Below are positions 1 through 34,503 of a stretch of 45,590 nucleotides of DNA, one piece after another. This stretch comes from an uncultured Ilumatobacter sp. (GTDB taxonomy: Bacteria > Actinomycetota > Acidimicrobiia > Acidimicrobiales > Ilumatobacteraceae): the NCBI GenBank assembly GCA_937919625.1, contig CALFRK010000077.1:1-45590 (forward strand), in the 5' to 3' direction. The notes under the pieces were generated by a model. That model saw only the letters and a program-made list of their open reading frames with translations, made no database searches and was not told where the DNA came from. Made by a program: the position numbers and the translations under genes. The stretch's first letter is position 1. Each line of letters starts with the position of its first letter.

Positions 1-273
1 AGCCTGCGCCAGACCATCATTCCCGCCCATCTGCTCGGACGCGTCAACAGCGTGTACCGGTTCTTCGCCTGGGGGATGATGCCGATCGGTGCCGCTCTGG
101 GTGGCCTGATCGTGTTCGTCGTCGAGCGATTCGCCGACCGCGACCTCGCCCTGCGGGCCACGTGGTTGGCGGCCGCGATCGTGCACGTCGGTCTGTTCGT
201 CTTCGGCCGCGCACGGCTGACGACCGACAAGATCGAAGCCGCCCGAGCAGCCGTAACCATGACCGCGTCTTGA
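1..273 (+). CDS. MFS transporter, C-terminal fragment (5' end outside window)
   Basis: The reading frame is open from the first base and ends at TGA 271-273, giving the last 90 residues of a larger protein. The visible start, SLRQTIIPAHLLGRVNSVYR, resembles the conserved segment between the last helices of MFS_3-type (EntS-like) exporters, where a helical hairpin follows an 'LLGRVNS.YR' stretch. Two hydrophobic segments follow (about residues 22-44 and 53-70), then a short polar tail. The substrate cannot be told from the tail. The gene ends directly against the stop codon of the convergent gene at 274, with no base between them. Confidence 0.7.
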   Translation, partial: SLRQTIIPAHLLGRVNSVYRFFAWGMMPIGAALGGLIVFVVERFADRDLALRATWLAAAIVHVGLFVFGRARLTTDKIEAARAAVTMTAS

Positions 274-729
274 CTACTGTGACCGCTTCTTGATCGCGTT
301 CTTGCCGTTCAGGTAGGCATTGGCAGCCATCCGGCCGGCCGATCGGCCGACCACATCGCCGGTCGAACCGGCGCTCGCCTCGCGGCGGGTCTTGCGTTCT
401 TTGCCTTCCGCCCAGTCGGTGTAGAACCACAAGAACCCGAGCGGAAGCAGCAGCACGACCATGATCAACCGGCCGCCGATCTCGACCGCGACCCACGGTT
501 GCACGATTCCGGCCACTATCGCCGCCATCAACACGACGTCGAGCCAGCGGTGGATCCCACGGCTTACCAGGCGAAATGCCCCGAGCGGGCCGCGGACGAT
601 CGACGTGTTGACCATCACCAGCGCACCGGCGAGCGCCGGCACGAGCGGCGAGATGTCCTGCATGCCCTGGGCCACCATCGAGATGCCAATCAGGTACTCG
701 GCAAGCTGATGAACCCAAAAGGGTCGCAT
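274..729 (-). CDS. small integral membrane protein of unknown function
   Basis: This is a 151-residue protein starting MRPFWVHQLAEY at the ATG ending at 729. A start five codons upstream is possible but less natural. It has about four hydrophobic segments: residues near 10-30 with IGISMVAQGMQ, 34-50, 65-85 and 88-105. A basic, polar C-terminal tail of about 45 residues is rich in Gly, Arg, Ala and Lys. I recognise no family with confidence. It is convergent with the MFS gene and lies downstream of the groEL hairpin. The 148 bases between its start and that hairpin hold no gene, and I see no clear promoter there. Confidence 0.6.
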   Translation of the reverse strand: MRPFWVHQLAEYLIGISMVAQGMQDISPLVPALAGALVMVNTSIVRGPLGAFRLVSRGIHRWLDVVLMAAIVAGIVQPWVAVEIGGRLIMVVLLLPLGFLWFYTDWAEGKERKTRREASAGSTGDVVGRSAGRMAANAYLNGKNAIKKRSQ

Positions 730-877
730 GGCGCGTTCTCCCATTTGCGCAAGCTACCTGGCGACTAGCGGCGACGGCGTTTGCCAGTCGGCTCGGCCGT
801 ACACGCCGACAGCGGGTCGACTCGCCAACAGCGTCCCAGGATCCAACGTCGCACGGCACCCCCGCCGCGCCGGGACG

Positions 878-913
878 CGGAACGGCCCGGGGCCTAAGCC
901 CCGGGCCGTTCCG
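878..913 (-). terminator. strong hairpin after groEL
   Basis: This is a perfect 16-bp inverted repeat (arms 878-893 and 898-913, GC-rich, loop CTAA) lying 49 bases beyond the groEL stop codon. There is no T-run on either side, so it is not a classical intrinsic terminator. Hairpins without a U tract are common at operon ends in high-GC actinobacteria. It most likely ends groES-groEL transcription. Confidence 0.7.
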
Positions 914-962
914 AACGTATGAGTCGTTCAGACCCTCTGGACCGATGTCCGGAGAGACTGGA

Positions 963-11854: not shown

Positions 11855-12975
11855 CTGATCCCGCTGGTGTCGAACCCGAGCGCCGCGAGCGTCTCGATAT
11901 CGGCAACACCAGTCGCGGCGAGTGCAACGGAGCTCTGGAACGCCTCGACCGCAGATCGAGTCACCGAACCGAAGTTGCCGTCCGCCAACGAGCCGAGCAG
12001 GTTGAGCCGGATCAGCCGAGTCTGGAGAGCGGCGACGTCCTGGCCGGACATCCCGATCTGTAGCACACGTTCGAGGGCGATGACGTGGATATCGTCTCGA
12101 CACTCGAAACGCCGCGCCTCACCGATCTCGTAGCACAGCACCCCGTCCTCGCCGATCGGGTACAGCGCCTGGATGTCGGCGACCGGTCCTGTCACATCGG
12201 GGTCTGGACACGGGTCCTGTGGCTCACTATTGGGCGTTACAGGCACCGGGCACGCCCTGCCCTCGATAAACGCCATCTTGCGGGTGAGATAATCGCTCGC
12301 AGCCCATGCGCCCAGCGCCCGGTAGTGCACACCGTCAGTCACGAACCACTCGGCCTTGTCCGCCGTGTATCCACCCCAGTCGGCAAGCACCACCTCCGGG
12401 TAGCTGCCGGTCGCCAGCAGATCGACGACAATCTGATTGTTGACGGCGAACGTCAGATGGTTGGCCACGGAACCCGGCGCCACGTAGTCGACGTCAGACC
12501 GCAGCGTCCACCAAACGATCCGCTCGTAGTCGAGACTTCGGGCGCGATCGACAATCGCCCGGAACGACGCAGCGAAGCTGGGAGTGCCGTCGTTGTACCC
12601 CGTGGATACCACCAACGTCGTGTATTTGTCGCCGTGGAAGTCGAGCGCCTCGTACACGGTCGGGGGGACGCGTCCCTCACGTCCGCGGCACGAGGGGGTA
12701 AGCAGCCGACGGCACGATTCGAGGTCGAGCGTGTGTTCGAACCCGAGGACCGCCGTGTCGGCACGCGGCACCCAGCGCAATGCAGAGATCGCCGAATCAC
12801 CGATCACCACGGCGCGGCGCTGCGAATCGACGCGAACAGCCGTCTCGTTCGGTGTTGCGACGGGGGCAACAACCTGGATCGCCGCTACGACCGTACCGGC
12901 CAAAGCAATCCCGAACACCACAGCAAACACCGCCAGACGTCTGTGGTTGGCATTCGTCAGCATTCGTCGGGTCAC
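11851..12975 (-). CDS. secreted or membrane-anchored SGNH-like protein with peptidoglycan-binding domain
   Basis: This 374-residue protein has a hydrophobic N-terminal segment (about residues 14-36), which is a signal anchor or signal peptide without an obvious cleavage box. An SGNH/GDSL-like region follows: VVIGDSAIS with Ser61 (block I), STGYND with Asn128 (block III-like), and DGVHY with Asp214 and His217 (block V). A C-terminal PG_binding_1 domain (about 303-369, VLQIGMSGQDVAALQTRL) closes the protein. A role in modifying cell-wall glycans, such as acyl-ester removal or addition, is inferred. The GTG at 12975 overlaps the nnr stop as GTGA; the ATG at 12963 is the alternative. The position between nnr and alr fits a wall function. 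Confidence 0.8.
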   Translation of the reverse strand: MTRRMLTNANHRRLAVFAVVFGIALAGTVVAAIQVVAPVATPNETAVRVDSQRRAVVIGDSAISALRWVPRADTAVLGFEHTLDLESCRRLLTPSCRGREGRVPPTVYEALDFHGDKYTTLVVSTGYNDGTPSFAASFRAIVDRARSLDYERIVWWTLRSDVDYVAPGSVANHLTFAVNNQIVVDLLATGSYPEVVLADWGGYTADKAEWFVTDGVHYRALGAWAASDYLTRKMAFIEGRACPVPVTPNSEPQDPCPDPDVTGPVADIQALYPIGEDGVLCYEIGEARRFECRDDIHVIALERVLQIGMSGQDVAALQTRLIRLNLLGSLADGNFGSVTRSAVEAFQSSVALAATGVADIETLAALGFDTSGIR

Positions 12976-14321
12976 CGCTCGAGCACCGCCGGGATCGCCG
13001 ATATCAGATCGCTGGCGACGAGCCCGGCGTTGCCCGCCACCGTGGCCGATTCGGCGTGAATCCAGGCGCCCGCGGCAGCGGCCTCGGCGGCTCCGACTCG
13101 CTTGGCGAGCAGTGCACCGATAATGCCCGCCAGAACGTCGCCCGTTCCGGCCGTAGCGAGCCGTTGGTCGCCGTTGACGACCAGACGGGTCGGGGCCCCA
13201 GGGGCGGCGACCACAGTGGTCGGCCCCTTCAGCAACACGACGCACCCGCACGATTCGGCGAGGCGTTCGGCGGCAGCGACGCGATCGGATCCTGGCCGCG
13301 AGCCGGTCAGCAGAGCAAACTCACCATCGTGTGGCGTGAGGATGGTCGGCACCTTGCGCTCACTCAGGAACGCCGGCGTGCCCTCGTCGTTCCAAGACAT
13401 CGCAAATAGACCGTCGCCATCGACGACGACAGGTACAACCGACTCGAACACAGTGCGGACGACAGATGGCACGGTGTGCTCCTCGCGACCGAGACCAGGA
13501 CCGATCACCAAGGCGTGGAACCGGTGTAGATCGGCCAGTGCAGCGTCTGCCCAATCGAAAGCTGGCAGGTGCCGATCGACGGCCTCGATCGGCCCGACCG
13601 CATCGATACCCGGGCTAGACAACACGACCATGCCAGCGCCCGTTCGCTGGGCGGCAGCGGCCGCCAAGTAAGCAGCACCTTTCATACCGGGTGAGCCGGC
13701 GATGACGCGTACGGCATCGCGCCACTTGTGAGCGGTGCGCGGTCTTACCGACACCCATCGCTCGATGTCGGAACGATCAACGATCGTGACCGAGGGCTCG
13801 CCGATATCGAGACCGATGTCGGCCACCTCGAGCAGACCGATCACGTCGGGGCCGCCGCCGAGTACATGCCCCGGCTTGGCTGCCGCAAAAGTGACCGTGA
13901 CATCCGCCGCCAGTGTGCCGTCAGCGACAACCCCGGTCAGTGCGTCAAGCCCGGACGGGACGTCGACAGCGAGTACCTTGGCGTCTCCTACCGACGGCGC
14001 CTGCCAGATCCCGCGGAACCCGGTGCCGAAGGCGGCGTCGATCACAAGGTCGAATCCGAAGAGCTCGGTGGGGCACACAGTTGCGTCGTGAACCACGACC
14101 TTCAGGCCGCGTAGGCGCAGTCGTTCGGCGGCAACGCGACCGTCGGCTCCGTTGTTACCGGGCCCGGCGATCACGGCAACACTGCGGCCGTATGCCCCGC
14201 CCAACAGCCGCAATGCCGATCTGGCGACCGCCGCCCCGGCGCGCTCGATCAGCACGTCGGCGGGATCGGCCGCAGCGGCATCGATCGAACGCATTTGCTC
14301 AGGGGTGATGACCGGGATCAC
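12972..14321 (-). CDS. nnr: bifunctional NAD(P)H-hydrate epimerase / ADP-dependent dehydratase
   Basis: This 449-residue fusion repairs hydrated NADH and NADPH. The N-terminal YjeF_N (epimerase, NnrE) domain spans about 1-200 with ITPEQMRSIDAAA, VAVIAGPGNNGADGRVAAERL and DVPSGLD. The C-terminal ribokinase-like dehydratase (NnrD) domain spans about 215-445, with VIGPGLGREE, LTPHDGEFALLTG and GTGDVLAG holding the catalytic Asp395. GTG codons at 14330 and 14321 are both possible starts, and neither has a clear ribosome-binding site. I chose 14321 because IPVITPEQM is the usual beginning. It follows acpS by 37 bases. Confidence 0.93.
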   Translation of the reverse strand: MIPVITPEQMRSIDAAAADPADVLIERAGAAVARSALRLLGGAYGRSVAVIAGPGNNGADGRVAAERLRLRGLKVVVHDATVCPTELFGFDLVIDAAFGTGFRGIWQAPSVGDAKVLAVDVPSGLDALTGVVADGTLAADVTVTFAAAKPGHVLGGGPDVIGLLEVADIGLDIGEPSVTIVDRSDIERWVSVRPRTAHKWRDAVRVIAGSPGMKGAAYLAAAAAQRTGAGMVVLSSPGIDAVGPIEAVDRHLPAFDWADAALADLHRFHALVIGPGLGREEHTVPSVVRTVFESVVPVVVDGDGLFAMSWNDEGTPAFLSERKVPTILTPHDGEFALLTGSRPGSDRVAAAERLAESCGCVVLLKGPTTVVAAPGAPTRLVVNGDQRLATAGTGDVLAGIIGALLAKRVGAAEAAAAGAWIHAESATVAGNAGLVASDLISAIPAVLER

Positions 14322-14358
14322 AGCCTGCACGTTACGGGTTCGGTCGCGCCCGGGGTGG

Positions 14359-14724
14359 TCACTCGGCCACCACATATGCGACAGCCACCAGGTCGGAATG
14401 AGTCAGACTGATATGCCAGCGCACAACGCCTGCCGATGCGGCCAGCTCGGCGGCCCGCCCGACGAATGCCAGAGAAGGCGCTCCCGACTGCGCTCGTTCG
14501 ACCCACACGTCGTGAAAGCCGAACGCCCCGAGTCCGACACCGAGCGATTTCATGACCGCCTCGCGAGCGGCAAACCGAGCGGCCAGCGAGGGCACCGGAT
14601 CGGCCTTTGGGGCGACATAGGCCAGTTCGGACGCCACGAACAGCCGTTCGCGCATCGACGGCGTGCGCTCGAGCGAGGTCCGGAACCGCTCGATCTCGAC
14701 AACGTCGACGCCGATGCCGATCAC
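14359..14724 (-). CDS. acpS: holo-[acyl-carrier-protein] synthase
   Basis: This 121-residue phosphopantetheinyl transferase attaches the 4'-phosphopantetheine arm of CoA to acyl-carrier protein. IGIGVDVVEIERFR (2-15) carries the first Mg-binding Asp. ARFAAREAVMKSLG (about 49-62) is the second signature, with the metal-binding Glu and the Lys. WHISLTHSDLVAVAYVV ends the fold. The GTG start is six bases after the stop of glmS, so the two are almost certainly co-transcribed and coupled. Confidence 0.95.
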   Translation of the reverse strand: MIGIGVDVVEIERFRTSLERTPSMRERLFVASELAYVAPKADPVPSLAARFAAREAVMKSLGVGLGAFGFHDVWVERAQSGAPSLAFVGRAAELAASAGVVRWHISLTHSDLVAVAYVVAE

Positions 14725-14730
14725 CGACGA

Positions 14731-17700
14731 TCAACTCCGCCAATTGTCGGCTGCGTCGGAGATTGGTTCGATCAGCAGATCGGCGACCGGAAACTCACCC
14801 AGCCGAGAGTCGTCGAAATCGCCCTCGGTCTCCGAGACCCAGTCGACAAGGCGGTCGTACCGGTTGTCGTAACCCTGGAGTACCCCCCGCATCGCCCCTG
14901 GCGACAATCGGTCGTGCAGACGAACATGCAGCAAGGTGATCCCGGTGCATGAATCGGCCTTTACCTCTGGTACGAAGATCACGATCCGTTGATCACGTCG
15001 ACCTTTGGCGACGAGCACCTCGCGCGCCTCGGCGACACGGTGCTTGGTACCGACCAGCCGAGAGTCGTCGTCGACGCGGCTGGGGAGATCGCGCGAGATC
15101 CCTCCCCGATCGACGATCGTGATCGTGTCGCCATCGACGCGATAACGAGTGAAGCCGACGACGTCGACGATCGCCGGGCTGAGCCCTGCCAGCACCTTGA
15201 GCGTGCGGTAGCTGAGCACGTCTCGGCCGGCGCCGGCCTGCAATGTGGCCTGGACCAGCAACCGATCGAGGACGCCTTCGTCGCTGCGGGAAATGCCCAC
15301 CGTGACGGTTTTGGCCTGGTGCTTGATGGCGTCGACCGGTCGGGTCAGCTGCTCGATCCCGCTCGTGAGGGCGGCGACCAAGGCGTCGATCAGGGCCCCG
15401 GGTGTACCGACCTTGCCTGACGTAGCGGCGTACGTCTCGACGGGGTTGGGTGCCTGCAGATCACGCAACAGACCGACGATGCAAACCGCCGTACTGGCCT
15501 CGAGATGACCGTCGTACAGCCGATCTCGCAGCCCATCGCTGAACGGACGCACGAGATTGGCAGCCTCAGCGCGAACCGCCGCCAGAACACCATCGCCGTG
15601 CGGCTGTTCGGCGGCTGAACGTTCGATCAGCTCACGCATCTCGCGAAGCGGGCGCGCCGACGCGTCGATCGCCAACGCCGCCTCGTATCCGAACAGGTGG
15701 CCGACCATCGCCGACAGCACAAACCCGAGTGCCGGCTCAACCGATGGAACGGTGATCGTTGCGGCGGCGCTGAACCGCACCTCACCCTCGTCGGCGATCA
15801 CGATCGCGGTGGCCTTGTGAGCCTTGAAGATCGCCGTTTCCTTTGCGACATCGTCGGCCGTGCTGCCCTGCAGTCCAGCGGCGCAGACGAGAATCAGCGG
15901 CTCGCTCGACAGGTCGATGTGCTTCTTGTCTTCGATCACATCGGCAGCAATCGACTTGTAGCACAGCTCGCTGAGCTTGATCCGGACCTCTTCGGCAGCG
16001 ACATGGTTGGGGCCACTACCAACGACCGCCCAGTAGCGCTTGGGAGGGGCGAACCGCTGCGCAACCTCGGCAATTTCGAGGCGCTTCGCCAGCACGGTTC
16101 GCATCGCTTGAGGAAGCGAGCGCAGGCCGACCAACAGCTCGTGGCGGCGCTGATCGCTGCCGAGTTTGGCAGCCTCGCTGATCGCGCAAGCAAGCAGCGC
16201 CCCCGCAGCAACCTGGGCGTAGAAGGCCTTGGTCGAGGCGACGCTCATCTCGACGTCACGTCCATCGGACGTGTACAGAATGCCGTTTGCCTTGTCGACC
16301 AGGTCGCTGGCGCGCCGGTTGACGATTCCGATCACGGCGGCACCTCGAGCCCGCAACAGATCAACCGTACGATTCGTGTCGGTGGTGGTCCCGCTCTGGC
16401 TGACGGCGATCGCCAGGGTGTCGCTCATATCGAGCCGCAAGTGAAAACCGGACAACTCGGTCGCCGGGATCGCATCGACGTCGAGCGCACCACCGCACAA
16501 CTCATCGAGTAGTGCCGCCGTACTCTGCCCAGCCACAGCGGCGGTTCCCTGGCCGATCACCCGAACGCGCTTGATCTGACCGCTCGCCAGGCGCTCGGCA
16601 ATCGACGGAACGAGTGCTCGATCACCAACGCAGGCGCGCAACAGCCCATTGCGCTCGACGATCTTGGCACGCAGTGTCTTTTGTAGGCTCTCCGGCGCCT
16701 CGCCGATCTCCTTAAGCAAGAAATGTGGTGCGTCGCCGCGATCGATGTCGCGCGTGGTGACCTCGGCAGTCACGATCTCGGCGTCGGTCACAGGGCGTTC
16801 GGCACCGTCGTAGCCGATCCGAACCACACCGTCCGCTTCGCCAGCCGAGGCGCTGCGTAGCACCACGATCTCGCCGCCCTGCTCGCCGTCAAGACGCAGG
16901 TATCGATCGGTCTCTTCGACGACGCCATAGGGCTCGCTGGCGACGATGAAACGGTCGTCAGCGAACCCGACGTACAGGCCCTGCCCACTGCCGCTCAACG
17001 CCAGCATCAGTGTGTCGGGTTGGTCGGCGCTGATCGACCCGATCGCAACTGAACCCTCGAATGCCGAGACAGTACGCCGAAATGCCTCTACAAGGTCTGC
17101 ACCGGCGGCCACGTGGCGCGACACGAGAGCAGGGATCACCTTCGCGTCGGTGGTTATGTGTTGATGGATCCGCAACCGATGGCCAACGCGAAGATCGGCG
17201 TGATTGTCGACGTCGCCGTTGAGAGCGGCAACCATGTAGGGGCCAGAGCCCGACACCGGGGACTGCTCGAGTTCGTCACTGTTGAGCGGATGCGTGTTGG
17301 GTTCAGAGATGATGCCGACACTTGCCCAGCGTGTGTGGCCGAGCACCGAGATACTGGCATCGACGGAAGCGACCGACCGTCGCAACAGGTCGTCGTTGAG
17401 CACGGCCGCCCTGAGTGCCGCCGTGTTGTCACCCAGTTCACCGATCTCGGCCGCTGCTTTGTACACGAAGGACAGCACCCCGTCAGATATGCGGACCGAC
17501 CCAGATTGGAAGGTTGGGTCCTTGGCACGTTCGTCGATCAGGTTCCGCACCACTGGGTCGTCGAGGTCGAGGGCGTGCCCGTGAACGAACACGTGAATCC
17601 CGGCCGAGTCGCGCCCACGAACCTCGAGCCGATCGATCGCCGACAACGATTGCTGAATCGACAGATAGGCGGCGACTGCGCCTGCGCTCGCATTACGGCC

Positions 17701-18087
17701 AGCCAGGGCCGACACCTCGCGAGCCGTACGCAACCGATCTTTGCGCACCGCCCACAGCACGTCACGCAGAGCGATCGCCTCGGCGCTCAGCCGTTCGAGT
17801 TCGATGGCGTCATGGTGACCGGAGTCGAGTGACAGATCAACATCGTTCGCGTAGGCATCGAGTTGATCGAGTCGACCCACGATCGACACGACCAGTTCGT
17901 TGTGATGGCTGAGAGCGAGCACCCCCGGAACGCCGCGCAGCAATTCGTCGGCAGCGCCCACCGCCCAAGTGACGGCCACAGGATCACCGATCGCGGCGAC
18001 TGCCGCATCGAGATGGTCCAACACGTCGGCCGGGCTGGGAACAGGACGCGTGGGTCGACGACTGATCACTCCGACGATGCCGCACAT
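14731..18087 (-). CDS. glmS: enlarged glucosamine-6-phosphate synthase (GlmS-like, 1118 aa)
   Basis: GlmS makes glucosamine-6-phosphate from fructose-6-phosphate and glutamine. The normal length is about 610 residues; this one has 1118. Cys2 after Met is the glutaminase nucleophile. LEVRGRDSAGI sits at 154-164, about 130 residues later than in E. coli. GHTRWASVG (250-258) and ALNGDVDN follow, and HFLLKEIGEAPESLQKTL (about 455-472) is the usual linker. The SIS1 domain has SQSGTTTDT (563-571) and VASTKAF (616-622). The SIS2 domain has IKLSEL (Lys704, Glu707) and His723. IKHQAKTVTVG (921-931) resembles the GlmS C-tail NLAKSVTVE, with Lys926 at the Schiff-base position. It lies about 110 residues further from SIS2 than normal and is followed by about 187 extra residues. 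It stands between glmM and acpS. Confidence 0.88.
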   Translation of the reverse strand: MCGIVGVISRRPTRPVPSPADVLDHLDAAVAAIGDPVAVTWAVGAADELLRGVPGVLALSHHNELVVSIVGRLDQLDAYANDVDLSLDSGHHDAIELERLSAEAIALRDVLWAVRKDRLRTAREVSALAGRNASAGAVAAYLSIQQSLSAIDRLEVRGRDSAGIHVFVHGHALDLDDPVVRNLIDERAKDPTFQSGSVRISDGVLSFVYKAAAEIGELGDNTAALRAAVLNDDLLRRSVASVDASISVLGHTRWASVGIISEPNTHPLNSDELEQSPVSGSGPYMVAALNGDVDNHADLRVGHRLRIHQHITTDAKVIPALVSRHVAAGADLVEAFRRTVSAFEGSVAIGSISADQPDTLMLALSGSGQGLYVGFADDRFIVASEPYGVVEETDRYLRLDGEQGGEIVVLRSASAGEADGVVRIGYDGAERPVTDAEIVTAEVTTRDIDRGDAPHFLLKEIGEAPESLQKTLRAKIVERNGLLRACVGDRALVPSIAERLASGQIKRVRVIGQGTAAVAGQSTAALLDELCGGALDVDAIPATELSGFHLRLDMSDTLAIAVSQSGTTTDTNRTVDLLRARGAAVIGIVNRRASDLVDKANGILYTSDGRDVEMSVASTKAFYAQVAAGALLACAISEAAKLGSDQRRHELLVGLRSLPQAMRTVLAKRLEIAEVAQRFAPPKRYWAVVGSGPNHVAAEEVRIKLSELCYKSIAADVIEDKKHIDLSSEPLILVCAAGLQGSTADDVAKETAIFKAHKATAIVIADEGEVRFSAAATITVPSVEPALGFVLSAMVGHLFGYEAALAIDASARPLREMRELIERSAAEQPHGDGVLAAVRAEAANLVRPFSDGLRDRLYDGHLEASTAVCIVGLLRDLQAPNPVETYAATSGKVGTPGALIDALVAALTSGIEQLTRPVDAIKHQAKTVTVGISRSDEGVLDRLLVQATLQAGAGRDVLSYRTLKVLAGLSPAIVDVVGFTRYRVDGDTITIVDRGGISRDLPSRVDDDSRLVGTKHRVAEAREVLVAKGRRDQRIVIFVPEVKADSCTGITLLHVRLHDRLSPGAMRGVLQGYDNRYDRLVDWVSETEGDFDDSRLGEFPVADLLIEPISDAADNWRS

Positions 18088-18137
18088 GAGGGTTCAGGCT
18101 ACCGACCCGGTGCCGTCGTCGGGGGTCGCCGCGACGC

Positions 18138-19466
18138 TCAGGTGGACAGGTCAGGGTGAGCTCGCACGACCGCTGCCAACTGGTCGGCGGTCGATCGTGC
18201 CAACTCCACAGTGGGTGCCTCGACCATCACGCGGACCAACGGTTCGGTACCACTGGGGCGCACCAATATCCGCCCAGTCGCGCCGAGCGGCTGAGCTGCC
18301 GCCGCGATCTCTGACGCCAACAGCTCTCCAACGTCGGGGCGGCGTTCGGCAACCGGGATGTTTACGAGTACCTGGGGCAGCTGCGTCATCGCCTCGGCTG
18401 CCAACTGCGACAACTGACGACCAGATCGTTGCACGACATCGAGCAACACGAGCGCTGTCAGCATGCCGTCACCGGTGGTAGCGAAGTCGGGAAAGATCAC
18501 ATGGCCCGATTGCTCGCCACCCAGCGAGTAGCGCCCGGCGGCCAGCGCTTCGAGTACGTATCTGTCACCGACATCTGTTTGAACTACCTCGATACCGGCC
18601 TCGCCCATCGCCAGGTGAAATCCGAGGTTCGTCATCACGGTGATCACGACCGTGTTCTTGTGGAGCTTCCCTCGCACGCTCAAGTCGGCGGCACAGATCG
18701 CGAGGATGTGGTCGCCGTCGACCACATCGCCGCGATTGTCGACCGCGATCAATCGGTCGGCGTCACCGTCGAGGGCGATCCCGACGTGAGCCCGCTCAGC
18801 TGTTACGACGGCCTGCAGCCCGGCCGGGTCGGTAGCGCCACAACGATCGTTGATGTTGGTCCCGTTCGGCTGTGCATTGATCACGACGACCTGGGCACCG
18901 GTGCGTTGAAATACTTCGGCGACAAGGTGCGATGCGGCCCCATTGGCGGCGTCGACGACGACGCGAAGGCCGTCGAGGCGGCGCCCCTCGAGCACCTCGA
19001 TCAGATGATCGACGTATTCGGCGCTGGTATCACCGCGCCCGTGGATCGGTGCCGGCTCACGGGTCGAGGTATCGAGCGAGCTCAGTGCCGCCTCGATCCG
19101 GGACTCGACCTCGTCGGGCAGTTTGGTGCCGCCCTTGGCAAACAACTTGATGCCGTTGTCGAAGTAGGGGTTGTGGGACGCAGAGATGACGGCACCCATC
19201 GCCCCCAACCGCGCCGCCTCAAAGGCGACCGCCGGCGTGGGCGTGACGCCCAATCGATGAACCTCGACGCCCTCGGACGCAAGACCGGCAACGAAGGCCG
19301 CCTCGAGCATCGCCGTCGAGACGCGACTGTCACCACCGACGACCGCTAGCCGAGCGTCGAGCACCCGAGCCGCGGCGCGACCGAGGTCGAGCGCGAACGA
19401 TGCTGTCAGTTCGGTGTTCGCTCGAGCGCGGACACCATCGGTGCCGAAGCGCACGAGCGAAACCAC
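18138..19466 (-). CDS. glmM: phosphoglucosamine mutase
   Basis: This 442-residue enzyme converts glucosamine-6-phosphate to glucosamine-1-phosphate, the step after GlmS towards UDP-GlcNAc. RFGTDGVRA (6-14) is the family start. ISASHNPYFDNGIKLF (94-109) carries the phosphoserine Ser97. DGDADRLIAVD is the Mg-binding loop, GGEQSGH is the sugar-binding loop, and RPSGTEPLVRVMVEA is the phosphate-binding C-terminal loop. The start is uncertain between GTG codons at 19466 and 19454, and the upstream frame is without homology. It begins 16 bases after the rpsI stop, and glmS follows 50 bases after its end. Confidence 0.94.
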   Translation of the reverse strand: MVSLVRFGTDGVRARANTELTASFALDLGRAAARVLDARLAVVGGDSRVSTAMLEAAFVAGLASEGVEVHRLGVTPTPAVAFEAARLGAMGAVISASHNPYFDNGIKLFAKGGTKLPDEVESRIEAALSSLDTSTREPAPIHGRGDTSAEYVDHLIEVLEGRRLDGLRVVVDAANGAASHLVAEVFQRTGAQVVVINAQPNGTNINDRCGATDPAGLQAVVTAERAHVGIALDGDADRLIAVDNRGDVVDGDHILAICAADLSVRGKLHKNTVVITVMTNLGFHLAMGEAGIEVVQTDVGDRYVLEALAAGRYSLGGEQSGHVIFPDFATTGDGMLTALVLLDVVQRSGRQLSQLAAEAMTQLPQVLVNIPVAERRPDVGELLASEIAAAAQPLGATGRILVRPSGTEPLVRVMVEAPTVELARSTADQLAAVVRAHPDLST

Positions 19467-19482
19467 TTGCCCGAAGCGCTTG

Positions 19483-19875
19483 TCAGCGCTTGGTGAACTG
19501 GGGTGCCTTGCGGGCCTTCTTGAGGCCGTACTTCTTGCTCTCCTTCTTACGCGAGTCACGCGTAAGGAGACCAGCCTTCTTCAGAGAGTCGCGAAGCTCA
19601 GGATCGAGCTCGACCAGCGAACGGGCGATCGCCATACGGAGTGCTCCGGCCTGGCCGCTGACCCCGCCACCATGGATCGAAGCGTCGACGTCGTAGGTCT
19701 CGAGCGCATCCGCGACCTTGAGCGGCTCGGAGACGACCATGCGCTGGGCATCGGTCGGGAAGTACACATCGAAGGCACGGCCGTTGATGGTGATCTGACC
19801 GGTGCCGGTGCGCAGTCGGGCGCGAGCAACGGCCCGCTTGCGTCGGCCGGTGGTCTGGGTGAGCGGAGTTGCCAT
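19483..19875 (-). CDS. rpsI: 30S ribosomal protein S9
   Basis: This is the 130-residue uS9, normal for the family. The body has TTGRRKRAVARARLRTGTG (8-26) and the conserved HGGGVSGQAGALRMAIARSL. The positively charged tail KKYGLKKARKAPQFTKR reaches into the small-subunit P site, and the terminal Lys-Arg is the residue pair that contacts P-site tRNA. The start is an ATG 20 bases after rplM, the conserved rplM-rpsI pair. glmM follows closely. Confidence 0.98.
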   Translation of the reverse strand: MATPLTQTTGRRKRAVARARLRTGTGQITINGRAFDVYFPTDAQRMVVSEPLKVADALETYDVDASIHGGGVSGQAGALRMAIARSLVELDPELRDSLKKAGLLTRDSRKKESKKYGLKKARKAPQFTKR

Positions 19876-19895
19876 GACGGTACGTTTCCTCGTTC

Positions 19896-20330
19896 TCAGC
19901 GCTTGATTTCGAACGGCTTGGGGGCCTGTGCGGTATGCGGATGCTCGGAGCCTGCGTAGACCTTGAGCTTCGTCATCTGCTGACGACCAAGCGGGCCCTT
20001 GGGCACCATGCCGCGCACCGAGCGACGCACAGCGTCGGCCGGCTTGCGGTCGAGTAGATTGGCAAACGTCTCGCTACGGATACCGCCTGGGTAGCCCGAG
20101 TGACGGTAGATCAGTTTAGAGTCGGCCTTGTTGCCGCTCATGATGACCTTGTCGGCATTGATGATGATCACATGATCGCCACTGTCGAGGTGGGGTGCGA
20201 AGGTCGGCTTGTGCTTACCGCGCAGAATTCGAGCGACCTCGGTGCACAGGCGGCCGAGGATGACGCCCTCGGCGTCAACCACGTGCCACTCACGCTGAAT
20301 CTCACTGGCTTTCGGGGTGTAGGTCTTCAT
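19896..20330 (-). CDS. rplM: 50S ribosomal protein L13
   Basis: This is the 144-residue uL13, an early-assembly protein that binds 23S rRNA. It begins MKTYTPKASEIQREWHVVDAEG and contains GRLCTEVARILRGKHKPTFAPHLDSGDHVIIINA and HSGYPGGIRSETF, all typical. The ATG at 20330 is the natural start. A promoter is predicted 78 bases upstream, in the 151-base gap after truA, so rplM-rpsI and perhaps glmM-glmS can be transcribed apart from the main ribosomal operon. Confidence 0.98.
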   Translation of the reverse strand: MKTYTPKASEIQREWHVVDAEGVILGRLCTEVARILRGKHKPTFAPHLDSGDHVIIINADKVIMSGNKADSKLIYRHSGYPGGIRSETFANLLDRKPADAVRRSVRGMVPKGPLGRQQMTKLKVYAGSEHPHTAQAPKPFEIKR

Positions 20331-20407
20331 CGAACGATCTCGCAACTTCTCCGCGACGTATTCGCGGCCAGGCAGCCCGAAGCAACAGACTGCAAATGAA
20401 CCGGGTA

Positions 20408-20437
20408 ATGATACGGGTCGAGAGGCACGCGCGGCAA
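20408..20437 (-). promoter_or_regulatory. predicted promoter for rplM-rpsI
   Basis: On the minus strand, a -35 box TTGCCG (20432-20437), an 18-base spacer and a -10 box TATCAT (20408-20413, 5 of 6 to consensus) lie upstream of rplM. This is among the best sigma70-type matches in the window. Confidence 0.55.
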
Positions 20438-20481
20438 CGTGCCTGTGCAGGCGATCCCAGATCGATTTGGACACCCGCCCG

Positions 20482-21315
20482 TTAGGTCGACCCGGATGCA
20501 GACGCGTCCCAGCGCTTACCGCCGTAACCCACCTGCCACAGCACGAGACCGGTCGGCGGGGCAACCGCCCCGGCTGCGGCACGATCTTTGGCGGCGAGAA
20601 TCTCTGGCATCGCGGCGGGGTCGATGCGACCGAGACCGACATCGACGGTGGTCCCGACGATCGATCTCACCATCTGGTGACAAAACGCGCTGCCTGTGAT
20701 CTGGAACAGCAGCAGCGGGGATTCGTCGATCGACTCCCACGACAGGTGATGGAGAACACGAACCAGGCTGTGAGTCGGGGACAGCTCGGGCACCTTTGGT
20801 CGACGGCAGAATGACGAGAAGTCATGTTCGCCGTGCAGGGCAGGCAAGGCCGCCTGCATGGCGGTCAGATCGAGTGGGAACGGGACATGCCAACTCGTAG
20901 ATGCCAGTAGCGGATTGGGAGCCGGGCCATTCCATACGTGATACCGGTATTGCCGCGAGGTAGCCGAGAACCGGGCGTCGAAGTCGGGTGATGTCCACGC
21001 AGCGTCGCGTATCGAAATCTCGGGCGCACACAGCTTGTTGATCCGTCGCGCCAGATCCGCTAGATCGGCGTCGGCAGGCAGGTCGCCGGAAAGCACCTGC
21101 CCCCACCCGTGCACACCAGCATCGGTGCGCCCAGCCATCGACAGCGCCACGGGTTGCCGCAGCACCGTCGCCATCGCCTCGAGCAGATCCCCCATCACTG
21201 TCCGAACCCCAGGATTGGCAGCGAACCCATGAAACCCGGTGCCAAGGTAAGCAACAACAAACCGGGCCCGCCGAACAGGCGCCCCACTGATTTCAGGATC
21301 CTCGAGACCAGCCAT
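20482..21315 (-). CDS. truA: tRNA pseudouridine(38-40) synthase
   Basis: This 277-residue enzyme converts U38-U40 in the tRNA anticodon arm to pseudouridine. The catalytic Asp65 is in AGRTDAGVHGWGQV (61-74). VAYLGTGFHGFAANPGVRTV (21-40) is the N-terminal block, ATSRQYRYHVWNG is the central Tyr block, and HDFSSFCRR and CHQMVRSIVGTTVDVGLGRI follow in order. It lies between rplQ and rplM, a common actinobacterial arrangement. The 231 bases between it and rplQ contain a large imperfect palindrome. Confidence 0.95.
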   Translation of the reverse strand: MAGLEDPEISGAPVRRARFVVAYLGTGFHGFAANPGVRTVMGDLLEAMATVLRQPVALSMAGRTDAGVHGWGQVLSGDLPADADLADLARRINKLCAPEISIRDAAWTSPDFDARFSATSRQYRYHVWNGPAPNPLLASTSWHVPFPLDLTAMQAALPALHGEHDFSSFCRRPKVPELSPTHSLVRVLHHLSWESIDESPLLLFQITGSAFCHQMVRSIVGTTVDVGLGRIDPAAMPEILAAKDRAAAGAVAPPTGLVLWQVGYGGKRWDASASGST

Positions 21316-21438
21316 CAGCGAGTCAGACTACGACCCGCGTCGTACGGCGAGCACGCAACCTCCGGTGAAGTGGTGCGGAAGGGTGCTCGAACCCTGCAGC
21401 CAGCCTGCGGCTAGCAATGCGAGTTTCTATCGGCTCTT

Positions 21439-21543
21439 GTCTGAGGATCAGATTCGTGGGGCGCAAGGCGCGGCGAACCCGAGTTGCCTCTGGGCAACGA
21501 GCGGTGAGACGGAACGCAGCGATCTGCGAATCTGGCCTCAGAC
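21439..21543. repeat. imperfect long palindrome after rplQ, possible operon-end structure
   Basis: The outer arms gtctgaggatcagattcg (21439-21456) and cgaatctggcctcagac (21527-21543) are inverted copies differing by a small bulge. A smaller perfect hairpin, GTTGCC-tctg-GGCAAC (21484-21499), lies between them. The structure begins three bases after the rplQ stop. It has no clear U tract. It may end the long ribosomal operon or be a dispersed intergenic element. The rest of the rplQ-truA gap shows nothing else I can name. Confidence 0.55.
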
Positions 21544-21546
21544 CAG

Positions 21547-21915
21547 TCAGACAAGTTCGATGCGGGCCATGCGGGCGTTATCCCCAGCACGCGGTCCGAG
21601 CTTGAGAATGCGGGTGTAACCGCCATTGCGCTCGTTGTAGCGGGGGGCGACATCATTGACCAGTTTGTGGGTCATTTCGCGGTCGCCGAGGTAGCCCTGG
21701 ATCTGGCGAATGCGGTGGATCCGCATCGGGCCATCCTGGGCCTTCTTGGCCTTCGTGATCAGCTTCTCGGCGATCGGACGCAGCGCCTTGGCCTTGGCCT
21801 CGGTCGTCGTGATCGCTTCGGCAGCGAACAATGACGCAGCCATGTTGGCCATCATCAGACGCTGGTGTTGGGAACTACCACCAAAGTTACGGGAGCGGCG
21901 TGGGGTTGCAGGCAT
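21547..21915 (-). CDS. rplQ: 50S ribosomal protein L17
   Basis: This is the 122-residue bL17, a bacterial-specific large-subunit protein near the tunnel exit. The N-terminal half (HQRLMMANMAASLFAAEAITTTEAKAKALRPIAEKLITKAK) is the standard fold, and the C-terminal half ends YTRILKLGPRAGDNARMARIELV, also standard. It has no C-terminal extension, unlike L4 and L22 in this genome. It starts at an ATG 36 bases after rpoA and is the last gene of the rplC-rplQ run. Confidence 0.97.
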   Translation of the reverse strand: MPATPRRSRNFGGSSQHQRLMMANMAASLFAAEAITTTEAKAKALRPIAEKLITKAKKAQDGPMRIHRIRQIQGYLGDREMTHKLVNDVAPRYNERNGGYTRILKLGPRAGDNARMARIELV

Positions 21916-21951
21916 GAGAGTGTGCTTTCGGCTTTCCGGTGAACTGAACGA

Positions 21952-22884
21952 TCAGACGCGCAGCGACAGGCCGCGCTCGTCCAGCTTCTCCTTGACCTCG
22001 TCCAGACTTTTCTGGCCGAAGTTGGTGATGTTCAACAGGTCGTCTTCGGTCTTGGTGAGCAACTCGCCCACCGTGTTGACCTGGGCCCGCTTGAGACAGT
22101 TGCGGGGACGCTCTGACAGATCGAGGTCTTCGATCGGCAGCTCGAGATCGGGAGAGCTCGTGGTCGTGTCAATCTTCTCACCGAGTTCGAGGCCCTGGGG
22201 CTCGTCGCTCATCGATGCCACCAACCCGGCGAGCGCCTGCAGCGTGGCACCGGCGGAGGCCAGCGCTTCGGAAGGAGTGATCGAACCATCGGTCTCGATC
22301 TCGATCACGAGATTGTCGTAGTTAGTCGCCTGCTCGACACGGGTCGGCTCGACGTCGAAACTGACCCGGCGAATCGGGCTGAAGATCGCATCGATCGGGA
22401 CCACGCCGATTGTGCGGGTCTCGATCTCGCGCTGACTCGAGGCGTAACCACGGCCTTGCTCGACAGTGAAGTCGATTGCCAGGCGGGCCTTGCCGTTGAG
22501 CGTCGCGATCGGCAGATCCTTATTGAGGATCTCTACGTCCGACGGGCACTCGATGTCACCGGCGGTGACAGCGGCGGGGCCACGTGCATCGAGGCGCAGA
22601 TTGACCGACTCTTCAGACGTCGAGGTGAGCACGACGTCCTTGATGTTCAAGATGATGTCGGTGACATCTTCTGCGACACCGGAAATGGTGTCGAACTCGT
22701 GAAGGGCTTCGTCGAACCGTACCGTCGTGATTGCGGCGCCGGGGATCGCCGACAGGAGGGTACGGCGCAGCGAGTTGCCGAGCGTATGGCCGAAGCCAGG
22801 CTCGAGCGGACCGATCGCGAAGCGCTGCTGGTTGTTGCTCTCCTCGCCGAGTGCTTCGACGGAAGGGCGCTGCATGACGAGCAT
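21952..22884 (-). CDS. rpoA: RNA polymerase alpha subunit
   Basis: This 310-residue subunit dimerises to nucleate RNA polymerase assembly. The N-terminal domain has FAIGPLEPGFGHTLGNSLRRTLLSAIPGAAI (about 22-52) and the insert domain. The C-terminal domain (about 248-305) has IEDLDLSERPRNCLKRAQVNTVGELL and the GQKSLDEVKEKL helix, which bind UP elements and activators. The ATG at 22884 is followed by another ATG three codons later; either could be used. It stands in the usual place between rpsD and rplQ, with an 87-base gap upstream that shows nothing distinctive. Confidence 0.98.
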   Translation of the reverse strand: MLVMQRPSVEALGEESNNQQRFAIGPLEPGFGHTLGNSLRRTLLSAIPGAAITTVRFDEALHEFDTISGVAEDVTDIILNIKDVVLTSTSEESVNLRLDARGPAAVTAGDIECPSDVEILNKDLPIATLNGKARLAIDFTVEQGRGYASSQREIETRTIGVVPIDAIFSPIRRVSFDVEPTRVEQATNYDNLVIEIETDGSITPSEALASAGATLQALAGLVASMSDEPQGLELGEKIDTTTSSPDLELPIEDLDLSERPRNCLKRAQVNTVGELLTKTEDDLLNITNFGQKSLDEVKEKLDERGLSLRV

Positions 22885-22971
22885 GTGCTGCCGGGTCCTT
22901 TCTGAGGGTGTTCGACTCTGTAATTTCGAATGATGAACGAGATGTCGTTGCGCAGGGCGCTCGACGATGGA

Positions 22972-23589
22972 TTACTTGGAGTAGAGCTCGACGATGAGCG
23001 ACTCGCGGACGGGCACGTCGATGTGCTCGCGCTGGGGAAGATCACGAACCGTGACCTGCTTGCCGCCGTCACCTGTCTCGAGCCAGCCGACGAGCGAACG
23101 GTCGAGAACATCGATGTTGTGCTGGATGACGATCATGTCGGCCGCCTTCTCGCTGAGCGAGACAACCTCGCCCTTGCGGACGCGGTAGGACGGGATGTCG
23201 ACACGGCGACCGTTGATCTTGACCAGGCCGTGGTTCACGAACTGACGGGCCTGCGGACGGGTCGAGGCCCAGCCGGCGCGGTAGACCACATTGTCGAGGC
23301 GGGTCTCGAGCAGGATCAACAGGTTTTCGCCAGTTGCACCGCTGAGTCGGTTGGCCTCGTTGTAGGTCTTCTTGAACTGCTTCTCGAGTACACCGTAGAT
23401 GTACTTCGCCTTCTGCTTCTCCTGCAGCTGGGCAAGGTATTCGCTGCCGGCGTTGCGGCGCCGGGTTCGGCCGTGCGCACCCGGCGGGAACGGACGACGG
23501 TCGAGGGCGCGGCGACCCTTTTCGTTTTCGAAAATGTTGGTCGCCAGACGACGCGACAGGCGCACCTTGGGGCCGGTGTAACGAGCCAT
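22972..23589 (-). CDS. rpsD: 30S ribosomal protein S4
   Basis: This is the 205-residue uS4, a primary 16S rRNA binder that starts 30S assembly and, in many bacteria, represses its own operon. It begins MARYTGPKVRLSRRL. The S4 RNA-binding domain has TRPQARQFVNHGLVKINGRRVDIPSYRVRKGEVVS (about 98-132). There are no Cys pairs at the N terminus, so this is the zinc-free type. It starts two bases after the rpsK stop. Confidence 0.97.
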   Translation of the reverse strand: MARYTGPKVRLSRRLATNIFENEKGRRALDRRPFPPGAHGRTRRRNAGSEYLAQLQEKQKAKYIYGVLEKQFKKTYNEANRLSGATGENLLILLETRLDNVVYRAGWASTRPQARQFVNHGLVKINGRRVDIPSYRVRKGEVVSLSEKAADMIVIQHNIDVLDRSLVGWLETGDGGKQVTVRDLPQREHIDVPVRESLIVELYSK

Positions 23590-23591
23590 GA

Positions 23592-23990
23592 TCAGCCCCT
23601 CCGCCGCTTGGTCTGGCGGCAACCATTGTGGGGAACCGGGGTGACGTCCTTGATCGACGTGACCTCGATGCCCGTGTTCTGAATCGAACGAACTGCGGTG
23701 TCGCGACCCGAACCCGGACCCTTCACCTGCACTTCGACCCGACGGAGACCATGCTCCATCGCGGCATTCGCGGCGCGCTCAGCGGCTTGCTGGGCGGCGT
23801 ATGGCGTGCTCTTGCGACTGCCTTTGAATCCGACAGCGCCAGACGATGCCCACGAGATGACATTGCCTGAGGTATCGGTGATGGTGACGATCGTATTGTT
23901 GAACGAGCTCTTGATGTGCACGATGCCCGTCGACACATTCTTGCGATCACGCTTGCGTGGGCGACGACCGCCCGGCTTGGCCTTTGCCAT
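23592..23990 (-). CDS. rpsK: 30S ribosomal protein S11
   Basis: This is the 132-residue uS11, on the 30S platform beside S18 and S21 where it lines the mRNA exit path. Typical features are [51 protein letters not shown] and the C-terminal [17 protein letters not shown]. The ATG at 23990 is two bases after the rpsM stop. The 43 upstream in-frame codons lie inside rpsM. Confidence 0.98.
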
Positions 23991-23992
23991 GC

Positions 23993-24373
23993 TTACTTCC
24001 TCACAGCCTTCTTCTTGTTGGCCACCGTGCGCTTCGGCCCCTTGCGGGTACGAGCATTGGTGTGGGTGCGCTGACCGCGGACGGGCAACCCCTTGCGGTG
24101 ACGGATGCCCTGAAGGCACCCGATCTCGATCTTGCGCTTGATGTCGTTTTGGACGTCACGTCGAAGGTCGCCCTCGATCGTAAGGTTCTGATCGACATAT
24201 TGACGGATCTTGTTGACCTCATCCTCAGTCAAGTTCGAAACTTTGGTGTTGCGATCAAGTTCGAGTTCGTCACAGATCTTCTGCGAGGTCGTGGACCCGA
24301 TGCCGAAGATATAGGTGAGCGAGATCTCCAACCGCTTTTCGCGGGGAATGTCAACGCCGGCGATACGTGCCAT
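23993..24373 (-). CDS. rpsM: 30S ribosomal protein S13
   Basis: This is the 126-residue uS13, in the head of the 30S subunit, contacting L5 (bridge B1b) and the P-site tRNA. It starts [26 protein letters not shown]. The helix-two-turn-helix block follows, and then the basic tail [23 protein letters not shown], all as expected. It starts 24 bases after rpmJ in the standard infA-rpmJ-rpsM-rpsK-rpsD-rpoA-rplQ order. Confidence 0.98.
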
Positions 24374-32446: not shown

Positions 32447-33334
32447 TCAGTCGTCCGCACGGAAGTGCGGAGTCTCGTGACCCTCACGGGTCTGGCGGGC
32501 GATGGTCTCTTCTTCGTCGAGCAGCTTCTCTAGCTCGGGATCGGCATCTTTGAGCAATGGCTGCGTCTCGGGCTCGGGAGCCTGATCACGGCGACGGGCG
32601 GCGGACGACACGACCTTGCGGGGGCCCTCGTCGGCGGTCTGACCCGAGGTCTCGCCAACCGCCATTGCGGCCTCGCGGACGATCTTGTCCTCGTTGGCGG
32701 CCTTGTACGGAAGGATGTCGCCCTTGTACAGCCACACCTTCACGCCAACCCGGCCGTTGGCAGTCTTTGCCTCACGGAAGCCGTAGTCGATATCGGCGCG
32801 CAGCGTGTGGAGTGGGACGCGACCTTCTCTGTACCACTCGGTACGGCTCATCTCGGCGCCACCGAGGCGACCCGAGCACTGGACACGGATTCCGAGTGCG
32901 CCGGCGCGCTGTGCGTTTTGCACCGCACGCTTCATCGCACGCCGGAAGGCGATCCGGTTGGACAGCTGATCGGCGACACCCTGAGCGATCAGCGCAGCGT
33001 CGAGCTCGGGCGCCTTGATTTCGACGATATTGAGCTGGATCTTGGCGTTGCCCGTGATCTTGGTGATCATCGTGCGCAGTTCGTCAGCTTGAGCGCCTCG
33101 ACGGCCGATCACAATGCCCGGGCGGGCCGTGTGCACATCTACGCGCAGCTTGTCGCGGGTGCGCTCGATCTCGATCCGGCTAATCGCAGCCGACTCGAGA
33201 CGAACCATCACGGCCTGGCGGATCTGCCAGTCCTCCGTGAGGTACTGCTTGTAATCGCGCTCGGAGAACCAACGGCTCTTCCAGTCGGTGCTCACGCCGA
33301 GGCGGAAGCCGTACGGATTGACCTTCTGACCCAT
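32447..33334 (-). CDS. rpsC: 30S ribosomal protein S3 with C-terminal extension
   Basis: This is a 295-residue uS3; the core ends near residue 212 ([12 protein letters not shown]). The type-2 KH domain has [17 protein letters not shown] (71-87). [35 protein letters not shown] and [15 protein letters not shown] are standard. S3 forms the mRNA entry helicase with S4 and S5. About 80 extra residues follow, charged and likely disordered ([23 protein letters not shown]). Other actinobacteria have shorter tails on S3. The tail lacks the module seen in L4 and L22. It starts three bases after the rplV stop. Confidence 0.96.
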
Positions 33335-33337
33335 GAA

Positions 33338-34225
33338 TCAGTCCTCGTCCTTCTGGGTACCGGGCTTCGCAAAGCCAGCCGCTTCAGCGTTTGCTTCGGT
33401 GTCGAACCACACCTCTGCCTTGGTGACCTTGTAGTACCGGCTGTCGGGGGTGTGGTACAGCATCGACTCGGCGTTGCCCTTGATGGCGTGCGATTCGGGG
33501 CCGTTGCCGTCAGCGTCGGGTGTGACCGAGCCAGCCCATTCTGCTGGGGCGAAACGGGCGTCGTGTTCGCTTGCCGCGCCCGCTGCGTCAGACTCGTCGC
33601 CGGCACTTGCAGCTTGCTTGTCGGGCTCGGCGGCGTCGACTGCTTCGTCGATTGCTTCGTCGATTGCTTGCTCAGCGGCGTCTTCGATCGCCTCGTCGGC
33701 ATCGATCGCGTCGATTTGCGACTTGGCGGCTTCGGCACGCTTGCGGCTGCGCTCGACGCGGGCACGGCGGTTGGCGTTGGCGCCGCCAGTCGACCCCTCG
33801 GCGCGGGCCTGCACGATCTCGATCCGGTCCTCGCCCATGCGAGCGAGAACGATCGTGATGTGACAAGTGCGTTTGCGGATACGGGTCGCACGACCGCGAG
33901 CACGCGGACGGAAGCGACGCAATGTGGGGCCCTCATCGGCGAAACAGGCCAGCACGAACAACTCGTCGGCGTCGGCGACATACGCGCCGCTGTCGGCATC
34001 GGTCGCGTTGGCGACGGCGCTGGCGAGCACCTTGCGGATGTCGTGAGCGATCGACCGCTCGGTGAACTGCAACACCTGATCGGCGCGCTTCACATCGAGA
34101 CCACGGATCAGATCGAGCACGACCCTGGCCTTGTAGGCAGACGACCGCACATACTTGGCGGTGGCCTTGGTGCCGTGGCGCTCACCGACCGCGGTGGCGC
34201 CCTCATTCAGCTTCGGACCGCGCAT
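33338..34225 (-). CDS. rplV: 50S ribosomal protein L22 with long C-terminal extension and shared module
   Basis: The L22 core occupies residues 20-140, including [19 protein letters not shown] and the beta-hairpin [29 protein letters not shown], which lines the nascent-peptide tunnel. Ordinary L22 has about 110-130 residues; this one has 295. The extension is first basic ([18 protein letters not shown]), then strongly acidic and Ala-rich (about 170-220). It ends in a compact module (about 229-288) with [24 protein letters not shown] and AEAAGF. The same module ends L4. Its ATG shares one base with the rpsS stop (TAATG). Confidence 0.96.
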
Positions 34226-34503
34226 TAGCGACGTGCTCCTTTTTCCTGTCCGGCGTGGAACCTGAACGTACGGGTCGGGCTGAACTCGCCGAGCTTGTGA
34301 CCCACCATCGACTCGGTGACGTACACCGGTACGTGTTTGCGGCCGTCGTGCACGGCGATCGTGTGGCCGACCATGTCGGGAATGACGGTCGAGCGACGCG
34401 ACCAGGTCTTGATGACCTTGCGCTCGCCGGCGGCGTTTTGGGCGTCAACCTTTTTGAGCAAATGCTCGTCGACGAACGGGCCCTTTTTGAGACTGCGTGA
34501 CAT
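34225..34503 (-). CDS. rpsS: 30S ribosomal protein S19
   Basis: This is the 92-residue uS19, in the 30S head, contacting S13 and the A-site finger. [68 protein letters not shown] is the near-universal sequence. It lies 17 bases after rplB. Confidence 0.98.

Follow-up and report, generated by a model that had tools for sequence, protein, structure and literature searches.

A double-length GlmS with an internal C-tail in Ilumatobacter and related Actinomycetota

The long glmS gene and its extra segments

The window analysed here, a stretch of 45,590 nucleotides from an uncultured Ilumatobacter sp. (contig CALFRK010000077.1, assembly GCA_937919625.1), carries a glmS gene of unusual length, which is referred to below as long glmS. 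It was read as a single open frame encoding a protein of 1118 amino acids with the N-terminus MCGI (Table 1). A residue alignment of 97 long proteins, among them that of the window, and 53 canonical GlmS proteins (E. coli included) was adopted for the comparison, in which E. coli GlmS has 609 amino acids counting Met and its residue numbers count Cys as 1. Relative to E. coli GlmS, stretches of at least 12 extra residues were found at 9-129 (121 residues), 169-193 (25), 221-237 (17), 270-281 (12), 811-917 (107) and 931-1118 (188). An earlier note on this DNA had described an insertion after Cys2, another after SIS2 and a C-terminal addition. All of them were present, as the stretches 9-129, 811-917 and 931-1118, and the three smaller insertions, which lie in the glutaminase domain, had been overlooked. 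The insertions could be aligned across 86 aligned relatives, with lower conservation than the core.

The C-tail buried within the chain, also claimed in that note, is real. Residues D919, A925, K926, T927, T929 and V930 were identical in 97/97 long proteins and aligned with E. coli D596 and A602-K603-S604/T606/V607. In Pfam, GATase_6 and two SIS stretches were matched over the cut-off by the 1118-residue protein, and no other family was. A local profile alignment of the whole long protein with canonical GlmS stopped at residue 806, and when the C-terminal 313 residues were set against canonical GlmS by profile, nothing of note emerged (probability 0.9%). Because these profile comparisons miss the tail, the case for its homology is made by the residue alignment and by the structural overlay described below, and not by a profile score.

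Beyond C1, E488, H504 and K603, the positions checked were those which we take to line the glutaminase and substrate sites. The equivalents of E. coli C1, R73, W74, H86, N98, G99, D123, E481, K485, E488, H504 and K603 were identical in 97/97 long proteins, so that the conservation of catalytic residues suggested earlier held at all 12 positions. The equivalents of S347, Q348 and S349 were likewise kept in 97/97, and that of T352 in 96/97. The isomerase residues E707, H723 and K926 (97/97) correspond to E. coli E488, H504 and K603, which are given in passages of PMC9272926 as the residues of the isomerase reaction, with glutamine hydrolysis by Cys1. In passages of PMC8041777, E. coli Arg331 is described as restricting the C-tail via a salt bridge to Glu608. 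This residue was Arg in 53/53 canonical proteins and variable among the long ones, in which Gly931 takes the place of the terminal Glu608; the loss of both partners fits a tail that is no longer the end of the chain. The change of S303 to Ala was dropped as a peculiarity of the long form, since Ala also occurred in 16/53 canonical proteins.

A tree on 598 shared core columns of 38 long and 53 canonical proteins showed two groups, with 100% support on the dividing branch in the Shimodaira-Hasegawa-like approximate likelihood-ratio test. Mean core identity was 64% within the long group, 54% within the canonical group and 29% between them. Among the canonical proteins of the window's order, 20/21 clustered within the canonical set and one (L120) stood apart. 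The long form may be either an ancient family of its own or a derivative that diverged rapidly.

Table 1. Features of the long glmS locus in the window (pLDDT, predicted local distance difference test)
Feature	Position	Strand	Basis and remarks
Long glmS	14731..18087	-	1118 amino acids plus stop; list of open reading frames and family matches
N-terminus (MCGI), residues 1-8, with the nucleophile Cys2	18064..18087	-	Cys in 97/97 long proteins (alignment)
Insertion 1, residues 9-129, predicted helical	17701..18063	-	alignment and model
Insertion 2a, residues 169-193, glutaminase domain	17509..17583	-	alignment
Insertion 2b, residues 221-237, glutaminase domain	17377..17427	-	alignment
Small insertion, residues 270-281	17245..17280	-	alignment and model; pLDDT <50 at 275-279
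Two SIS domains spanning roughly residues 450-810 and containing E700, K704, E707, H723	15658..16740	-	Pfam, profile alignment, overlay, alignment
Insertion 3, residues 811-917, linking SIS2 to the C-tail, predicted helical	15337..15657	-	model and alignment
Buried C-tail, residues 919-930, DAIKHQAKTVTV, K926 = E. coli K603	15298..15333	-	alignment, overlay; pLDDT <50 at 925-933
C-terminal addition, residues 931-1118; PAS/GAF-like predicted fold at 944-1118	14734..15297	-	models and alignment
glmM (presumed), upstream neighbour	18138..19559	-	list of open reading frames; listed frame exceeds the likely gene
acpS (presumed), downstream neighbour	14359..14724	-	list of open reading frames

The names glmM and acpS, like those of the other neighbours, are our presumed assignments from the sequences of these genes. 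The glmS stop lies 6 bases from the listed acpS start, and the acpS frame overlaps the nnrD frame (12972-14375, minus strand) by 17 bases; glmS, acpS and nnrD thus form a tight gene cluster. No glmS ribozyme was found, as no Rfam element reached the gathering score in window positions 12000-24000. Elsewhere in the window, a frame of 473 amino acids on the plus strand (32807-34228) had no NCBIfam match at E 1e-10 and may not be a gene.

Distribution and genomic slot of the long form

In a scan of named genome contigs, the best 80 of 552 related loci in other genomes matched the long protein over most or all of its length. These 80 were labelled Ilumatobacter, Acidimicrobiia (orders and families) or Actinomycetota, save four, one of which was labelled only bacterium or similar. 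The other three (L012, L054 and L047), labelled Bifidobacterium breve twice and Acidobacteria once, carried genes 59-66% identical to the window's and are probably mislabelled bins. In a sample of 59 genomes of the order, 36 carried the long form, 21 carried canonical GlmS over the TIGR01135 cut-off (418 bits), two had neither (G035 and G055) and none had both. A single frame of more than 1100 amino acids was found in 34/36 long-form genomes; the gene was split in two frames in G011 and reduced to a frame of 917 amino acids in G012. The two frames seen in L225 (the locus of G011) and in L050 reflect either a frame error or a real split. Since 0/36 long-form genomes passed the TIGR01135 cut-off, annotation by that cut-off would miss glmS in them.

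The same mutual exclusion was largely found across the phylum. The C-terminal 313 residues were matched in 32 of 396 genomes, of which G343 (E 7e-4) was dropped as a chance match, leaving 31 carriers. The match lay in frames of more than 1100 amino acids in 28 carriers and in shorter frames (464, 591 and 676 amino acids) in three, which we read as cut by contig ends. Canonical GlmS stood beside the long form in only 1/31 carriers (G099); 24 of the 31 were tested outside the order sample and seven lay within it, so that both forms occurred together in 0/59 order genomes and 1/24 further carriers. Out of 80 genomes across the phylum, 71 matched canonical GlmS with an E value no higher than 1e-100, and the remaining nine comprised six long-form carriers and three in which neither was found (G062, G090 and G121). 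Among genomes lacking a match to either form, G035 and G055 from the order and G062 and G090 from the phylum were 86-98% complete; the former pair gave a weaker PurF-like match only, and the latter pair had neither a canonical match at E 1e-100 nor a match to the C-terminal domain.

In the window's own genome, a draft of 185 contigs with 98.7% completeness, no second, canonical glmS was found, nor any other protein with GATase and SIS domains. Its other GATase_6 match was PurF, and its other SIS match resembled HexR/RpiR-type regulators, with scores below the cut-offs for these. A separate canonical glmS, which the earlier note had named, together with loss of isomerase activity, as the finding that would count against its proposal and had suggested searching for, was thus absent here and present in 1/31 phylum carriers. 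The long GlmS is a clade-wide form and no oddity of one genome. As a separate observation, the top match to GlmU in this genome (L188, G000:C42:12114-13172) covered model positions 2-344 of 452 and, with 337.8 bits, fell short of the cut-off of 366.85; a truncated or diverged acetyltransferase end may be the cause.

Gene neighbourhoods were counted at the 42 long-form loci with more than 13 kb of DNA (of 80) and in 20 stretches from the same order that carry canonical glmS. Around the long gene, glmM, rpsI and rplM were present at all 42 loci, alr at 41, acpS at 40, and nnrD and truA at 35. Around the canonical gene, glmM was present in 18 stretches, in 16 of which it lay immediately upstream; acpS and nnrD were present in 16, rpsI and rplM in 15 and alr in 14, and one stretch (L201) had none of them. 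As these neighbours are common to both, long and canonical glmS usually occupy a common operon slot. In genomes from beyond the order, this slot was taken by the long gene in G093, G074 and G253, and in G099 the canonical gene lay in the slot and the long gene elsewhere. In the five genomes of family f99 (G158, G179, G221, G306 and G316; completeness 94, 96, 97, 81 and 64%), the long gene lay apart from the neighbours listed above and no canonical GlmS was found. No glmS was recognised there within 7-12 kb around glmM; the next recognised gene after glmM was nnrD in G179, G306 and G316, and none was recognised in that place in G158 and G221. The long form being the sole GlmS found, this family provides the strongest indirect evidence for a GlmS role.

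Predicted fold of the C-terminal domain and occurrence of GlmR

A full-length model built from 86 sequences reached a pLDDT of 89.2 and a predicted template modelling score (pTM) of 0.79, and it matched GFAT-1 and E. coli GlmS in fold, with human GFAT-1 at the top in both aligners. With VIA-align, the model was superposed on E. coli GlmS 1jxa with Z 41.8 and a root-mean-square deviation (rmsd) of 5.0 over 596 aligned residues (2..932 on 1..608), and on the E. coli glutaminase domain 1xff with Z 30.4 and rmsd 1.7 over 232 residues. In this structure prediction, a check that the earlier note had proposed, the modelled tail, of pLDDT below 50 at 925-933, ended at the canonical tail end. In overlays on the E. 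coli chains 1moq, 1mos, 7dnr and 2vf4, the aligned end was 1-3 residues off the residue alignment.

The C-terminal 313 residues modelled alone (pLDDT 91.1, pTM 0.58) formed a helical part (806-930), which matched common helix bundles only (Z about 7-8), and an alpha/beta part. The strands of the latter lay at 973-985, 988-996, 1025-1028, 1035-1043 and 1046-1057, in the order two strands, helices, three strands, which we take to be the order of PAS domains. Residues 944-1118 were aligned by VIA-align to residues 173-358 of the mycobacterial large glutamate dehydrogenase L-GDH180 (7jsr) with Z 9.1 and rmsd 4.3 over 162 residues, and to GAF domains with Z 8.0-8.8 over 78-84 residues, where models without a clear match typically reach a best Z of 7 to 8. 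Residues R955, Y982, K1015, D1032, R1034, R1076 and E1086 of the domain were invariant and polar. No PAS or GAF family was among the 25 listed of the 27 Pfam families weakly matched over 86 members, and these 27 (best E 0.0026 in one member; DUF7124 in nine members, best E 0.0028) were taken as chance. The domain had no match in PHROGs up to E 0.1 and none on plasmids at E 0.001. The predicted fold of residues 944-1118 bears a moderate resemblance to PAS/GAF domains; since sequence searches link the domain to no family, the likeness is one of predicted fold only.

In B. subtilis, according to passages of PMC7525490, GlmS is stimulated by GlmR, and UDP-N-acetylglucosamine prevents the stimulation. 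In the order sample, GlmR was present in 18/36 long-form and 19/21 canonical genomes and absent from 18/36 and 2/21, respectively (Fisher p 0.003, kinship ignored). Among genomes at least 90% complete, it was present in 14/29 long-form and 18/18 canonical genomes (p 2e-4, kinship ignored). GlmR was counted in 37/59 genomes, 35 over the cut-off and two (G032 and G030) just under it. B. subtilis, whose GlmR is the one studied, was missing from the controls that gave a match in the model search, which makes absence by the model alone unsafe; a second query with the GlmR-like protein of a relative returned the same 37 genomes. Most other genomes gave partial model matches of 20-45 bits, which we read as another CofD-like protein, and the window's genome had no match at E 1e-8 and weak partial model matches only. 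On the GlmS tree, in which 30/36 long-form and 21/21 canonical genomes could be placed (the other six lying outside the alignment), the GlmR state had to change seven times among the 30 long rows and nine times on the whole tree, and well-supported branches forced only four of the nine changes. That fused control replaced GlmR is conceivable and, in our judgement, rather doubtful.

Function, rival explanations and known systems

Taken together, the conserved residues, the predicted fold, the operon slot and the lack of any other GlmS found indicate that the 1118-residue protein very probably has GlmS function. Our preferred reading, which we hold with a modest lean, is that it serves as the sole glucosamine-6-phosphate (GlcN-6-P) synthase and is regulated in cis by its C-terminal domain. 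Glutamine would be hydrolysed at Cys2, the ammonia would then pass to the SIS site, and fructose-6-phosphate would be converted there via E707, H723 and K926, in the manner of the E. coli enzyme. The C-tail would be held at both ends, by the helices at 811-917 before it and by the PAS/GAF-like domain at 944-1118 after it. As a hypothesis based on the predicted fold, this domain may sense a metabolite or a partner and move the tail, thereby acting on the ammonia channel and the isomerase site, which would put in cis the control of a step that is run in B. subtilis via the separate protein GlmR. An effect of the buried tail on channel closure or regulation, as the earlier note expected, is hinted at indirectly by the missing equivalents of Arg331 and Glu608, by the PAS/GAF-like fold behind the tail and by the lack of GlmR in half of the carriers. 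On a broader and more tentative level, an actinobacterial lineage may have swapped ordinary GlmS for a single-chain allosteric synthase whose tail is set by a fused sensory domain, with GlmR dispensable and repeatedly lost.

A number of results weigh against regulated GlmS activity as the reading of this protein. Its best NCBIfam matches were GlmS models, all below their cut-offs (TIGR01135, 233.8 versus 418 bits). Residues invariant in the 53 canonical proteins were changed in the long form: Y28 (to R), T76 (S), H77 (V/I/M), H97 (L/V/A), R331 (variable), E351 (T), G505 (I/V), P598 (I/V), R599 (K, with R in 5), N600 (H) and L601 (Q). NagB, a possible other source of GlcN-6-P, was encoded in the window's genome over the cut-off. 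The placement of the buried tail at the canonical tail end comes from a monomer model of low confidence at just these residues. For the C-terminal domain, Z 8-9 is just above the usual best value of models without a match, Foldseek gave nothing at E 0.001 or better (the first match, L-GDH180, at 1.2e-3), no Pfam family was found for the window's copy, and its profile had no PDB match up to E 10, L-GDH180 included. Half of the long-form genomes (18/36) retained GlmR, and since long versus canonical is one split on the GlmS tree, the association with GlmR is uncorrected for relatedness.

The replaced residues, the 29% mean core identity to canonical GlmS, the TIGR01135 score and the presence of NagB would also suit a GlmS-like amidotransferase that acts on a different sugar phosphate, with GlcN-6-P coming from another route such as reverse NagB. 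This is improbable, because the equivalents of E488, H504, K603, K485, E481, S347, Q348 and S349 were kept in all long proteins, with T352 in all but one, and because the long gene lies in the glmS slot and the two forms are almost mutually exclusive. A stronger competitor, though still an unlikely one, is a GlcN-6-P synthase whose insertions and C-terminal domain serve assembly or stability, for instance another oligomer or docking to GlmM or another enzyme. It is consistent with the predicted helical insertions at 9-129 and 811-917, with the helix-bundle matches of residues 806-930 and with the usual occurrence of the long gene in one stretch with glmM; the PAS/GAF-like order of strands and helices with invariant polar residues, and the location of the long gene away from glmM in family f99, argue in the other direction. 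An artefact of assembly or gene calling that fused two genes, to which the two-frame genes of G011 and L050 and the shortened gene of G012 might point, was refuted by independent homologues, with one frame of more than 1100 amino acids in nearly all long-form genomes of the order sample and insertions that were present and alignable in the 86 relatives; its probability is negligible. The long GlmS is thus a real, clade-wide GlmS variant.

GlmS is the entry to the amino sugars of the cell wall. Its ammonia channelling is well studied, and its mobile C-tail contributes residues to both active sites (passages of PMC8041777). With a natural form whose tail is fixed at both ends and followed by a sensor-like domain, the coupling of the two sites by tail movement could be tested directly, and the long GlmS may represent a novel means of adjusting wall synthesis to metabolism. 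No description of a double-length GlmS was found among the open-access papers listed, as judged by titles and abstract openings. Compared with known systems, the long form has in common with E. coli GlmS the Cys nucleophile, the glutamine site, two SIS domains, the equivalents of E488, H504 and K603 and the C-tail motif AK[ST]VTV; its operon slot is also that of the canonical GlmS found in its order. It differs from bacterial GlmS in its length (1118 versus 609 amino acids), its insertions, its internal C-tail, its divergent core, the lack of Arg331 and Glu608 equivalents and a score below the TIGR01135 cut-off. In its top fold match, human GFAT-1, the C-tail is the end of the chain (residues 670-681), mobile and placed between both active sites (passages of PMC8041777), whereas that of the long form is internal. 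The closest fold to residues 944-1118, the N-terminal segment of L-GDH180, is joined to a different enzyme and resembles the domain in fold only, with 0 sequence matches up to E 10. In B. subtilis, GlmR/YvcK provides control of GlmS by metabolite level in trans (passages of PMC7525490), whereas the candidate control domain of the long form is fused to the enzyme itself.

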